From Pseudooceanicola batsensis HTCC2597 (GTDB taxonomy: Bacteria > Pseudomonadota > Alphaproteobacteria > Rhodobacterales > Rhodobacteraceae): a stretch of DNA of 64,000 bases. The position numbers were made by a program, and so were the translations under genes. The notes below the pieces were generated by a model. That model worked only from the letters and a program-made list of their open reading frames with translations. It made no database searches and was not told where the DNA came from. Positions 23,239-27,497 of the stretch are shown here, one piece after another. The stretch covers positions 3,189,648 through 3,253,647 of the forward strand of contig NZ_CH724131.1 of the NCBI RefSeq assembly GCF_000152725.1. Reading direction: 5' to 3'. The stretch's first letter is position 1, and each line of letters starts with the position of its first letter.

Positions 23239-23607
23239 ATGCGCAACGCGGCGTTGATCCTCGGGCTGATCGGCGGCCTGATGGGGCTTGTCGTCGGCCT
23301 TGCGAGCTATGGCTACACCGAGGCGGTCGACCGCTTCGGCGAGGTCGAGGGCCTTTTCGAACAGGTGGCCAACGTCGATGCCCTCCGCGCGACGGCCGTT
23401 CTGGCGCCCATCCTGGCGCTGGCCGGCGCGGGCATGGCCAAGGTCCGGGCCCTCTGGGGCGGTGCGCTGCTTCTGCTGTCGGTGGCCGGGATGTACGTGG
23501 GCTTTGGCCTCGGGGTCTTCACCCTCTTCCCGATGGCGTTCTGCGGTGTCGCCGGGCTCATGGCTCTGGCTGCGGGGAAACCCGACGAGCCGAAGGCGCA
23601 CTTCTGA
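23239..23607 (+). CDS. Small membrane protein, function unknown
   Basis: A 122-residue protein with three or four hydrophobic segments (about residues 4-26, 50-66, 74-92, 95-113) and few charged residues. It starts 3 bases after the ArsC-like gene, so the two are co-transcribed. Its 3' end overlaps the convergent DoxX gene by 50 bases. No family is recognised. Confidence 0.7.
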   Translation: MRNAALILGLIGGLMGLVVGLASYGYTEAVDRFGEVEGLFEQVANVDALRATAVLAPILALAGAGMAKVRALWGGALLLLSVAGMYVGFGLGVFTLFPMAFCGVAGLMALAAGKPDEPKAHF

Positions 23608-24121
23608 AGATCAGCCGGTCGGCGGACAGCAGGCCCCCCCCGAGCACGACAAGGGTGCCGAGAAGGTTTATCCACAAAGCCCGCTGATCGAGGATCAGCG
23701 CATCCGGCGTCCTGTCGAACCACGCGCCAAGCGTCCCCTCATGCGCGATCCCGCCATGGCCAAAGAGGTCGGTCAGGCTTTGCACCACCACGAAACCGAT
23801 CATGCCGAGCGCGGCGAGCCGGGTCAGCAGGCCCAGCACGATCAGCAGGGGCAGGAGGAACTCGGCCCAGGTGCCTGCCACGACCACGATCCGGTGATAG
23901 AGGTCCAGGTTTGCGGAATCGAAGCCCGCCGCCTCCATCGCGCCGGGAAATATCTGTGCGTAGGCCCCGACCGAAGGCGAGAAAATCCCGGAGATGCCAC
24001 CGCCGATCTTGGTGGCGGCCGATGCCCAGTAGTACGGCACCAGAACGGCGGCAAAGACGAAACGCGCCAGCAGCGGAAGACCGGGCGTCAGTCGGGCAAG
24101 GGGGGCAGAGGGATCGGTCAT
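23558..24121 (-). CDS. bufD: DoxX family protein of the bufferin operon
   Basis: A 187-residue membrane protein of the DoxX family, with four helices and the motif YYWASAATKIGGG after the first. DoxX proteins are often associated with redox or quinone functions. Here it is the last gene of the bufA-bufB-bufC-doxX unit, with its ATG overlapping the bufC stop (ATGA). In the described Caulobacter buf operons the fourth gene also encodes a DoxX protein; its role is not established. The symbol follows that analogy. It overlaps the opposing small membrane protein gene by 50 bases. Confidence 0.85.
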   Translation of the reverse strand: MTDPSAPLARLTPGLPLLARFVFAAVLVPYYWASAATKIGGGISGIFSPSVGAYAQIFPGAMEAAGFDSANLDLYHRIVVVAGTWAEFLLPLLIVLGLLTRLAALGMIGFVVVQSLTDLFGHGGIAHEGTLGAWFDRTPDALILDQRALWINLLGTLVVLGGGLLSADRLIFRSAPSARRVSPQPEP

Positions 24122-24876
24122 GGCCGGGGCTCCGGTTCGGTCAGGCTTCGGGTCTGGATCAGCAGGGTCAGGATCGCCGTGGCATCATGCGCGCCCGCCA
24201 CGGCCAGGGCGGCCTCGGCGGCCTCGCCCAGCGGCGCGCCAGCGCCCAGGGCATCGACGAAGGCCGCATCGCCGGGGCCCAGCAGGTGCGGCTCGGGGTC
24301 GTAAGCGGGCCGGGCGATCAGCACGTCCTCGGGGACGGGCTGCGCCTGTGGCGCCCCGGCCTCGGTCGCGCGGCGCCAGATCGACAGAACAGGCCAATCG
24401 GATCGCAGGACGCGCACCGACGGAGCGAGGCCGAACCGCCGCTCCGGCAGGCTTTCGGGCGGAATGGCGGCGAGGGTTTCGGCCCCGAGCGGCGTGGCGT
24501 CCGCCGCATGATAGCTGTCCCGCAGCGCGAATTCGAACCGGGCGAGGTCTCCGATCCACCGCATGCGCGACAGCTGCGGAGCCGCGTCCATGAAGGCCCC
24601 AAGTTCGGCCCCGTAGCGGGCCATCAGGGGCGAGGCGGGCGGATGCTGTCGGAGATACGCGCCCGCCATGGCGCGGAAGGTCTCGTCGCCCAGCAGTGCG
24701 CGGCAGGCCGGAAAGTCCTCGGCCAGGGCCTCGGTCAGGCTGACGGCGACATTGTTGCGGTAGACGGCGAACCGGCGCCCAGCAGGACGCCCCGAGCCGT
24801 CACGCAGCGAGGAGGGGACAGCCGCCGCGGGGTTCATCACGGCGGCACGGAAGAGGCCTTGATCAGTGCCGCTCAT
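24118..24876 (-). CDS. bufC: DUF2063 protein BufC/HvfC, partner of the MNIO enzyme
   Basis: A 252-residue protein. Its N-terminal half has the DUF2063 motif [20 protein letters not shown] then [20 protein letters not shown]. In this family the protein helps the DUF692 enzyme recognise its precursor peptide, as MbnC does for MbnB in methanobactin synthesis and HvfC in Haemophilus. The start at 24876 is fixed by an ATGA overlap with bufB. The C-terminal half is a less conserved helical region. Its position in the operon supports the role as peptide-handling partner. Confidence 0.88.
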
Positions 24877-25730
24877 GCTGCCGCTCTTTCCGCCGCGCGC
24901 GCGAGGGCGTGGCGCGCCCGCCCCGCCTCGGCGGCGAGCACGGGCCAGTCGGGAACATCGGTATCCCATTCGATCAGCAAGGGCGCCGGGCCGCCATGTC
25001 CCAGGACCTCGTCGAGCAGCGCCCAGACCGGATCCGCGACCGCGCGTCCGTGGCTGTCGATCAGCAGCGGCGCGCCGTGATCGTCGTGATCCTCGTCATG
25101 CCCGCCCAGATGCAGCTCTCCCACGCGGTCCATGGGGAACTCTTCCACATACCGCCGGGCGTCGAGCCCCAGGTTCGTGGCCGAGACGAAGACGTTGTTC
25201 ACGTCGAGCAGCAGGCCGCAGCCCGTCCGGTCGGCCACTGCACGCAGGAAATCGGTCTCGCGCATCGTGCTATCGGCGAAGGCGAGGTAGGAGGAGGGGT
25301 TCTCCAGCAGCATTCGGCGGCCCAGCACCTCCTGCACCTCGTCGATATGATCTGCGACCCGCGCCACCGTTCGCTCCGTGTAGGGCAGGGGAAGCAGGTC
25401 GTTCAGAAAGGCGCCGTCATGGGTCGACCAGGCGAGATGCTCGGAAAAGCTGGCCGGGTTCAGCCAGTCGCAGAGGTGTTTCAGCCGCGCCAGGTGATCC
25501 GGGTCGGGACGGGTTTCGCCGCCGATCGACAGGCCGACCCCGTGCACGGAAATCGGAAAGCGCTCGGCCAGGTGACGAAGCTGCGCGATGGGGCGCCCGC
25601 CGTCGCCCATGTAATTCTCGGCGTGGATTTCCAGCCATTGCACCGCGCCCGGATCGGCGAGGAGCGCGGAATAATGCTGCGGCTTGTAGCCGACGCCCGG
25701 CGCGGCGGGCAATTCGGATGCTGTGGTCAT
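24873..25730 (-). CDS. bufB: DUF692 multinuclear non-haem iron oxidative enzyme BufB
   Basis: A 285-residue TIM-barrel enzyme of the DUF692/MNIO family, which uses two or three iron ions to modify Cys residues in small peptides. Visible family motifs are [67 protein letters not shown] and [10 protein letters not shown], which between them carry the His, Glu, Asp and Asn metal ligands. In Caulobacter the enzyme of this type turns Cys thiols of the bufferin into thiooxazole groups. It follows bufA after 60 bases and overlaps bufC. Confidence 0.93.
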
Positions 25731-25758
25731 GGGAACCTCCCCGGAAACAGGTTGCGTC

Positions 25759-25780
25759 GGGGCGGGCGCGAACCCGCCCC
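25759..25780 (-). promoter_or_regulatory. Hairpin between bufA and bufB
   Basis: A perfect 8-bp inverted repeat (GGGGCGGG / CCCGCCCC) with a 6-base loop lies 11 bases beyond the bufA stop and 28 bases before the bufB start. No T run follows. A stable stem at this place typically leaves the small first gene in excess over downstream genes by partial termination or by protecting its 3' end. Confidence 0.55.
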
Positions 25781-25790
25781 GCGCGCTTGG

Positions 25791-26114
25791 TCAGCTGTCC
25801 ATCGGCAGGTCGCGCTCAAGCGCCTCGAGGCTGCCCATCTTGCCGTCCGGCAGCATGACCTCGGTGCCGTCGGCCAGGACGGGGCTGTCGGTTTCGCAGG
25901 TGCCGTCCTGCACCAGCGTCCAGGCGTTGCCCTGGTAGTCGACCTTGGACGTGCCCGCGCAGGTCGTGCCCGGCCCCGCGGCGCAGTCGTTCTCGCCGGC
26001 CATCGAGACGCCGAAGCACTTGACGTTGTCGGCGGCGGCGGCCGGGGTGGCGGCGGCGGTTGCGGAAACGGCGGCGACGAATGCGCTGGCGATGACGGCT
26101 TTGTTGGTTTTCAT
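25791..26114 (-). CDS. bufA: Bufferin precursor peptide (DUF2282), metal-binding
   Basis: A 107-residue exported peptide of the DUF2282 family. A signal peptide of about 28 residues (cleavage after TPAAAA) precedes the family core, in which four Cys occur at residues 33, 44, 52 and 73 within [23 protein letters not shown] and QDGTC. GNAW lies before the last. In described bufferins some Cys are modified by BufB and the product sequesters copper in the periplasm. After the last Cys there is an unusual acidic tail of 34 residues (residues 74-107). GGAGG precedes the ATG. It is the first gene of the operon and sits about 70 bases downstream of an ECF-type promoter. Confidence 0.9.
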
Positions 26115-26188
26115 GGTTTCCTCCGTTTGGATATGCCGGAATGGCGTTCGTTGGTTGCGGCGCCGTGTCCGGCGTCCGTGCTCCTCCC

Positions 26189-26215
26189 TTCGCGGGGCGG
26201 GGCGGGCCTGTTACA
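26189..26215 (-). promoter_or_regulatory. Candidate ECF sigma promoter of the bufferin operon
   Basis: On the minus strand TGTAAC (26215-26210) and CGAA (26192-26189) are separated by 17 bases. The same two words, 16 bases apart, occur on the plus strand in front of the sigma factor gene. The pair resembles the GTAAC...CGAA promoters I recall for SigF of Caulobacter. A start of transcription about 7 bases further would give a leader of about 70 bases before bufA. Confidence 0.65.
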
Positions 26216-26260
26216 CGGCTCACGAACGAGTGATGAGATTGCCGTTTTTCACGCGGTGGC

Positions 26261-26286
26261 TGTAACGTTTGCCCGTCGGGCCCGAA
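26261..26286 (+). promoter_or_regulatory. Candidate ECF sigma promoter of the sigma factor gene
   Basis: TGTAAC (26261-26266), 16 bases, CGAA (26283-26286) on the plus strand. The element would start transcription only a few bases before the ATG at 26298, so the message would be nearly leaderless. Sharing the words with the opposing bufA promoter suggests autoregulation. Confidence 0.55.
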
Positions 26287-26297
26287 TGGAGAGACAG

Positions 26298-26837
26298 ATG
26301 CCGGATCGCGATGACCGCTGGAGCGATCTGCTGCGCAGGGCACTGCGCGGGGACGGCGCGGCCTATGCGGCCTTCCTCTCCGAAGCCGCGCCCGTCATCC
26401 GCACCATCGTCCGCGCCCGCACGGCGCGCGCCGAGGAGGCCGAGGACATCGTGCAGGAGGTGCTCCTTGCGGTTCACGCCAAGCGTCATACATGGCGCGA
26501 GGACGAGCCGGTGAGACCCTGGCTCTATGCCATCGCCCGCTACAAGTCGGCTGATGCCGGTCGCAGGCGCGGCCGGCGCGGCGGGCAGGTGCCCCTCGAC
26601 GACCTGGTCGAGGTGCTGCCGGACGAGGCGGGCGAAACGACGGCGGCCCGCGATCTCGCGGTGCTGCTTGACCGGATCGACGACCGAGCGGCGCGGATCG
26701 TGCGCGCGGTCGGGCTGGAGGGGCGCAGCGCGGCGGAAGTCGGCCGCGCCCTGGGGATGAAAGAAGGAGCCGTCCGCGTGGCCTATCACCGCGCGATGGT
26801 GCAACTGAAGGACCTGGCCGGTGACGGCGGGACGTGA
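26298..26837 (+). CDS. sigF: ECF sigma factor, SigF type
   Basis: A 179-residue extracytoplasmic-function sigma factor. Region 2 is visible as EEAEDIVQEVLLAVHAKRHT and PWLYAIARYKSADAGRRR; region 4 as LEGRSAAEVGRALGMKEGAV followed by RVAYHRAMVQL. I use the ATG at 26298; an ATG four codons upstream overlaps the proposed -10 element. The next gene, 18 bases on, encodes an NrsF-type membrane anti-sigma factor, and the bufferin operon is divergent. This is the arrangement expected for the SigF-NrsF module that answers copper and other metals in Caulobacter. Confidence 0.9.
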   Translation: MPDRDDRWSDLLRRALRGDGAAYAAFLSEAAPVIRTIVRARTARAEEAEDIVQEVLLAVHAKRHTWREDEPVRPWLYAIARYKSADAGRRRGRRGGQVPLDDLVEVLPDEAGETTAARDLAVLLDRIDDRAARIVRAVGLEGRSAAEVGRALGMKEGAVRVAYHRAMVQLKDLAGDGGT

Positions 26838-26855
26838 ACGGATGAAGACCGAGGC

Positions 26856-27497
26856 ATGAAGACGGACGATCTCATCACCATGCTGGCGCGGGACGCGGCG
26901 CCGCCCCCGGCCGCGCCGATCGCGCAGCGGGCCGGCCTGGGGCTGGGGGCCGGGCTGGCGGCGGCTGCCGTTCTGTATCTGCTGGCGCTCGGCCCGCGCC
27001 CGGCGCTCGGCCAGGTCATGCTGGACCCGCTCGTCTTCGCCAAGATGTCGCTGCCGCTCGTGCTGGCCGCATTCGCCCTGGTGCTGGGGCTGCGCGCGGT
27101 GCGTCCCGCCGGCGTGCCCGGCCGGACCGGCCGTCTGATCTGGATCGTCCCGGCCGCCGCCGCGGCCCTCTTCGCCGGGGTCTTCGTCACCACGCCGGCC
27201 GATCAGCGGCTGGCGGATTTTCTCGGCCATTCGATCCAGGTCTGCCTGCCCTCGATCACGGCCCTCTCCATGCCGATCCTCGTGGGGCTCATGCTGGCCC
27301 TGCGCCGCGGCGCCCCGGTCCGCCCCCGCGCCGCGGGGGCGCTGGCGGGCCTGGCGGCGGGCGGGCTGGCGGCGGCGCTCTACTCGACCTTCTGCACCGA
27401 GGATTCGCCGCTCTTCTATGCGGTCTGGTATTCGCTGGGCATCGGCATCGCAGCCGGAATCGGCGCGCTGGCCGGCGGGCGCTGGCTGAGGTGGTGA
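26856..27497 (+). CDS. nrsF: NrsF (DUF1109) membrane anti-sigma factor
   Basis: A 213-residue inner-membrane protein with six hydrophobic segments and a short N-terminal cytoplasmic region starting MKTDDLITMLARDA, as in DUF1109/NrsF. The family keeps two Cys that are needed for metal sensing; here they are Cys130 (SIQVCLPSI) and Cys180 (YSTFCTEDSPLFYAVWY). In the model from Caulobacter the protein holds SigF at the membrane until the Cys pair is engaged by metal or oxidation. It lies in the same operon as the sigma factor. Confidence 0.92.
   Translation: MKTDDLITMLARDAAPPPAAPIAQRAGLGLGAGLAAAAVLYLLALGPRPALGQVMLDPLVFAKMSLPLVLAAFALVLGLRAVRPAGVPGRTGRLIWIVPAAAAALFAGVFVTTPADQRLADFLGHSIQVCLPSITALSMPILVGLMLALRRGAPVRPRAAGALAGLAAGGLAAALYSTFCTEDSPLFYAVWYSLGIGIAAGIGALAGGRWLRW

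Follow-up and report, generated by a model that had tools for sequence, protein, structure and literature searches.

A Buf1-type bufferin locus with predicted SigF-NrsF control in Pseudooceanicola batsensis, and an alternative bufA promoter in its sigF-less relatives

Results

We analysed a 64,000-nucleotide stretch of the genome of the marine roseobacter Pseudooceanicola batsensis HTCC2597 (contig NZ_CH724131.1, positions 3,189,648 to 3,253,647; hereafter the window), in which a bufferin operon lies divergent from the genes of an extracytoplasmic function (ECF) sigma factor and its putative anti-sigma factor, at positions 23558-27497. The operon is encoded on the reverse strand and begins with bufA (25791..26114), the gene of a Buf1-type DUF2282 precursor of 107 amino acids (Pfam DUF2282, E 7.2e-21). 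It continues with bufB (24873..25730), encoding an MNIO/DUF692 bufferin maturase of 285 amino acids (MbnB_TglH_ChrH, E 1.8e-103), and bufC (24118..24876), encoding a DUF2063 partner protein of 252 amino acids (DUF2063, E 2.2e-25), and ends with doxX (23558..24121), whose product is a DoxX family membrane protein of 187 amino acids (DoxX, 27.9 bits against a cut-off of 23.6). The forward strand carries sigF (26298..26837; Sigma70_r2 and r4 above cut-off) and nrsF (26856..27497), encoding a predicted six-helix membrane anti-sigma factor of 213 amino acids (NrsF, E 5.3e-55). All six genes score above the Pfam gathering score, which served as our threshold. The divergent arrangement, which a first-pass annotation of the sequence had described, is thus borne out by family matches and coordinates, and the ATGA overlaps it had noted between bufB and bufC and between bufC and doxX are present. 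This is a true, conserved and well-formed Buf1-type bufferin locus, of a kind already described.

For comparison we used the best 80 of 538 confirmed BufB loci, a named set that leans to close relatives because it was taken from the top of the list. These loci are assigned to roseobacter genera or, more broadly, to Rhodobacteraceae/Paracoccaceae, Rhodobacterales or Alphaproteobacteria, with Pseudooceanicola the closest among them, which fits the earlier impression of a Rhodobacterales-like genome. BufA was found in 79 of the 80 loci and BufC and DoxX in all 80, while SigF and NrsF stand beside bufA in 8. The gene order thrS, bufABC, doxX, a small gene and an arsC-like gene recurs both with and without the sigma pair. 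In the window the small gene (23239-23607, forward strand) is convergent with doxX and matches no Pfam or NCBIfam family; many named loci also have it beside doxX.

The cysteines of BufA and a set of BufB residues are strongly conserved. BufA has four cysteines, as first counted (Cys33, Cys44, Cys52 and Cys73); the last three are present in 80/80 aligned rows and Cys33 in 79/80, the exception (L011) being cut by a contig end. Its N-terminus, judged by eye, combines a lysine-containing start, a hydrophobic stretch and an alanine-rich end, as in a Sec-like signal sequence. BufB matches the NCBIfam model MNIO_BufB ('bufferin maturase') at 370 bits (cut-off 310). Its residues His63, His98, Glu143, Asp176, His207, Asp225, His227 and Glu254 are found in 81/81 rows and His211 in 80/81, and all nine align with identical residues of the solved MNIO structure 3bww; we take them to be metal ligands. 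Searches of solved structures with BufC, BufA and NrsF returned nothing at the thresholds used.

The start of sigF can be read at two ATG codons, giving 183 amino acids from 26286 or 179 from 26298. The second is the likelier start, since the first overlaps a predicted -10 box (see below), and it would give the protein the same length as Caulobacter crescentus SigF, reported as 179 amino acids (PMC3511200, Table 1). NrsF retains the two cysteines of its family, as had been claimed: Cys130 and Cys180 are its only cysteines, are present in 9/9 rows, and correspond to Cys131 and Cys181 reported in C. crescentus. A structure model built from nine sequences (mean predicted local distance difference test score, pLDDT, 79) contains long helices at residues 22-45, 58-81, 97-112, 127-152, 157-179 and 185-210, with Cys130 opening the fourth helix and Cys180 directly following the fifth. 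This placement would, by connectivity, put both cysteines on one face of the membrane, and the face would be periplasmic if the N-terminus is cytoplasmic. A short 15-bp tandem repeat also lies within nrsF (27344-27375).

Both divergent units carry a predicted sigma-F promoter. The consensus reported for C. crescentus is GTAACC-N16-CGAA (PMC3511200). The bufA copy, GTAACA-N16-CGAA (26189..26214, reverse strand), begins 100 bp upstream of the bufA ATG; the sigF-nrsF copy, GTAACG-N15-CGAA (26262..26286, forward strand), has the -10 box that overlaps the first ATG of sigF. They differ from the consensus in the sixth base (A and G, respectively), and the sigF copy also in its N15 spacer. Genome-wide, the CGAA-form class has 15 matches, two of them in the 171-bp gap between bufA and sigF, and the reversed control pattern has 54. 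An element of this kind lies upstream of bufA in 9/9 loci where sigF is the neighbour (the window plus 8 named ones); it also occurs in 2/71 loci lacking sigF there, at odd positions (L046 at -226, L065 at -25). Together with the family matches and the conserved cysteines, these promoters support the proposal that the bufferin locus is controlled by a SigF-NrsF pair of its own, and sigF-nrsF is predicted to be autoregulated.

The other 13 genome-wide CGAA matches may include additional members of the sigma-F regulon. Eleven lie inside mechanical frames of at least 100 amino acids on either strand; one of these (L086) is also 14 bp before a 240-amino-acid frame on the strand opposite to its enclosing frame. 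The remaining two are L088, which has neither an enclosing nor a downstream frame of at least 100 amino acids, and L094, 4 bp before a 188-amino-acid frame.

A further candidate target lies outside the window. The element GTAACT-N16-CGTA (G000:C2:2730929-2730954, L273) is located 58 bp before the first in-frame start of msrP, and this site is the sole genome-wide match to GTAAC-N17-CGTA (reversed control, 10). The genomes of L002, L003 and L004 have the same element, at -57 to -59. For this comparison 24 genomes were searched, 16 of them sigF-less; two of the latter dropped out (L022 lacked a match and L020 gave a weak fragment only), and the msrP element was found in none of the 14 sigF-less genomes read, allowing up to one mismatch. 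Sigma-F of C. crescentus is reported to control a YedY/MsrP gene as well, CC2748 (PMC3511200); the msrP -10 box here reads CGTA. The Caulobacter sigma-F regulon of bufferin plus MsrP is thus rebuilt in this genome, as far as promoter motifs tell.

SigF-NrsF beside bufA is a minority arrangement in the family. Among 198 family genomes, DUF2282 was found in 140 and NrsF in 30. Seventeen of the 30, the window's included, carry NrsF at most 3.5 kb from DUF2282, 7 carry it elsewhere (in one of these, G129, the match is weak and falls below the cut-off), and 6 have no DUF2282 match; the distances use 31 of 35 NrsF rows, four weak second rows being left out. With 17 of 140, the coupled form therefore makes up roughly an eighth of the sampled genomes that bear bufferin genes. 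In a BufB tree of 80 rows, built without L035, two changes are required for the sigF label: it marks a Pseudooceanicola-type clade of 8 rows, to which the window and L003 (Primorskyibacter) belong, and, on its own, L075 (Tropicimonas sediminicola). The sigF gene thus occurs, with its promoter type, at two distinct points of the tree. The picture is irregular among the closest relatives of L075: two (L076, L078) have neither promoter type discussed here, and in one (L037) the tandem site lies far upstream.

The less expected result of this analysis is an alternative bufA promoter in most of the sigF-less relatives sampled. These roseobacter loci, the majority of the 80, share the operon and mostly its site between thrS and the arsC-like gene, but lack SigF-NrsF, and in place of the sigma-F element their bufA promoter usually has a tandem CGTGA/CACG element. 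This tandem element, CGTGA-nn-CACG-N4-CGTGANTGG (consensus CGTGA-nn-CACG-N4-CGTGAaTgG), lies about 80-150 bp upstream of bufA, at a fixed distance from a sigma70-like -10 box. The form GTGnnnCACn6-7GTG is present in 43/70 sigF-less loci (shuffled mean 0.21, maximum 2/70) and in 0/9 sigF loci; two loci cut at bufA or bufB (L011, L035), which could not show sigF, were left out of the 70. With a profile trained on 43 of the 70 loci, the bufA-upstream site was the best in its own locus in 64/70, including 21/27 untrained loci, and in 0/8 named sigF loci. The six misses comprise two loci with a good site at -153 (L029, L050), one with a site at -528 (L037) and three with none (L033, L076, L078). 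In 46 of the 64 loci a TANNNT hexamer begins 28 or 29 bp past the second GTGA, a spacing that fits a class II activator site. In about twelve loci an additional half-site pair continues the element at a 15-bp period.

Exact matches to the tandem core are nearly specific to bufA. In 61 genomes the exact 13-letter core has 10 matches (reversed control, 1), nine of them upstream of DUF2282 and the tenth inside a frame (L115). As 40 of the 61 genomes hold DUF2282, the exact core misses many bufA sites. We also looked for further targets with up to two mismatches. This gave matches in 48/61 genomes, but the reversed control often matched too, so that most of these matches are probably due to chance; nearly all of the 11 off-locus places that we read fall within reading frames, and none had a convincing promoter. 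Outside the family, a search of 289 class genomes gave one match (reversed control, 2), in a genome that itself belongs to the family (G055), with a pattern strict enough to miss variants. Where the thrS-bufA gap of a sigF-less locus is long or absent, inspection by eye, rather than by hidden Markov models, showed no recognisable regulator gene beside bufA. No paper on the bufA promoter of sigF-less loci came up in our literature searches; these were not directed at the motif itself, and we make no claim that it is unpublished.

We also scored a second set of 60 family genomes, with three of its loci repeating the first set (L144=L004, L182=L076, L190=L006). Where NrsF is adjacent, the tandem element was found in 0/16 genomes and the sigma-F element in 12/16. 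The 37 genomes without NrsF, which were drawn from both ends of the score list of 116 such DUF2282 genomes and not at random, had the sigma-F element in 0/37 and the tandem element in 28/37. Genomes with NrsF elsewhere had one of each (1/6 and 1/6), and in the single genome whose sole NrsF match is weak, the promoter is of the tandem form. Shuffling the second set in two-base blocks produced 2/1200 tandem and 8/1200 sigma-F matches. No bufA in these 60 genomes carries both promoter types. Two loci of the first set, L046 and L065, combine a tandem element with the odd-position sigma-F match mentioned above, which is about as many double matches as chance allows.

The window itself has a TCAC-N6-GTGA dyad (26218..26233, reverse strand) immediately upstream of the bufA -35 box, which resembles half of the tandem element of the sigF-less relatives. 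A CAC-N6-GTG dyad occupies this position, directly upstream of the sigma-F -35 box, in 8/9 sigF loci, the window included (shuffled mean 0.48). This dyad may be a relic or a second input. In the bufA 5' leader of many loci we also noticed, by eye, an apparent short inverted repeat near the predicted transcript start (for example ATCGC...GCGAT; GCC...GGC in sigF loci), the stem letters of which vary.

Discussion

The window locus has the same six genes as the sigF-nrsF/CC3254-CC3257 locus of C. crescentus (CCNA_03362-03366, CCNA_03273), for which sigma-F control, a two-cysteine anti-sigma factor, and copper induction and sensitivity have been published (PMC3511200, PMC8224329); the likeness to CC3252-CC3257 is one of gene content. 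A second DUF2282-DUF692-DUF2063 operon (CC2907-2905) is present in C. crescentus, whereas the genome studied here (4.44 Mb in 7 contigs, 92% complete) holds one DUF2282 and one DUF692 match. The gold-induced genes (gig) operons of Cupriavidus metallidurans and Legionella, other hosts again, are termed bufferin clusters in PMC12452194, and the Legionella operon is reported to resemble that of Cupriavidus (PMC5413113); we liken them to the window locus by description only. Since the gene order, the regulator pair and the copper link already appear in these reports (PMC3511200, PMC8224329, PMC12452194), the first-pass description of the locus as the most likely exciting system of the window was overstated.

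By analogy with these systems, the gene set probably makes a chemically modified copper-binding peptide that is switched on by the locus' own stress switch, and we consider it very likely that this is a self-regulating Buf1 bufferin locus answering excess copper or another thiol-reactive metal. At rest, NrsF in the membrane would hold SigF. Excess copper, or another such metal, would act from the periplasmic side on Cys130 and Cys180 and free SigF; in C. crescentus such cysteine-dependent release, reported for chromate, is backed by mutants (PMC3511200). Free SigF would then drive bufABC-doxX, sigF-nrsF and the distant msrP. BufB, guided by BufC, would turn BufA cysteines into thiooxazoles in the cytoplasm, and BufA, exported through Sec, would chelate periplasmic copper, as described for bufferins (PMC12452194) and related peptides (PMC12668002), while MsrP would repair oxidised periplasmic methionines (PMC8224329). 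The genes, the conserved residues, the promoter elements with their association with sigF, and the motif-defined regulon members were established here. For the metal signal, the NrsF mechanism, the BufA chemistry and the protective role, we infer from C. crescentus and from bufferin studies.

Several observations weigh against this reading. Copper as the signal comes from the Caulobacter work rather than from this organism, and a 2012 study reported that sigma-F and two of its target genes are not essential for metal resistance in C. crescentus (PMC3511200). BufC scores 53.9 bits against the NCBIfam HvfC model (cut-off 142) and NrsF 110 bits against the AntiSigF_NrsF equivalog (cut-off 300). 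In the second set, 4/16 genomes with adjacent NrsF lack an exact sigma-F element upstream of bufA, and the msrP element, at up to one mismatch, is present in only 4/9 sigF genomes, being missing in L005, L012, L018, L075 and L080. The BufA structure model was poor (pLDDT 58) and was not used, so that the layout of disulphides or modified cysteines could not be assessed from it. BufA also reaches 22.2 bits against NCBIfam BufA2 (cut-off 60), no NCBIfam BufA model calling it above cut-off, as might be expected if the locus had no working bufferin maturation, with BufA unmodified or the operon silent. We regard that as very improbable: the frames are open, three of the four BufA cysteines and most of the listed MNIO residues are invariant over 80-81 rows, and the promoter is conserved, all of which are signs of selection.

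The identity of the signal leaves more room. Copper might be one inducer among several, with another stress (chromate, cadmium, gold or silver ions, oxidants) as the main signal and BufA as a general sink for soft metals or oxidants. Sigma-F of C. crescentus responds to chromium and cadmium (PMC3511200), gig operons respond to gold and copper (PMC5413113), and the msrP element points to oxidised methionine. However, the C. crescentus cluster is reported to be induced by copper, and its sigF::Tn5 mutant to be copper-sensitive: loss of sigF severely impaired growth with copper, and for chromate and cadmium the mutant was reported to show similar sensitivity (PMC8224329); bufferins were also described as improving growth under copper stress (PMC12452194). 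We therefore hold this broader alternative to be possible but doubtful, and favour copper or another thiol-reactive metal acting through NrsF.

Taken across the family, the bufferin operon may be an effector cassette that stays fixed while its control module is swapped. Under this proposal, towards which we lean with some reserve, SigF-NrsF with sigma-F promoters would serve a minority of roseobacters, the window's among them. Most others would use the tandem CGTGA-nn-CACG-N4-CGTGANTGG operator, specific to bufA and positioned in the manner of a class II activator site before a sigma70-like -10 box, on which an undescribed copper or related stress regulator would act; the window dyad would be a remnant of that regulator's site or a second input from it.

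With these results a copper-response unit known from earlier publications is placed in a marine roseobacter, and a regulon of three operons is predicted for it: bufferin, sigF-nrsF and msrP. In the sigF-less bufferin loci, which are the commoner ones, a promoter of a different type is strongly conserved, and this makes the hunt for a second bufferin regulator concrete.

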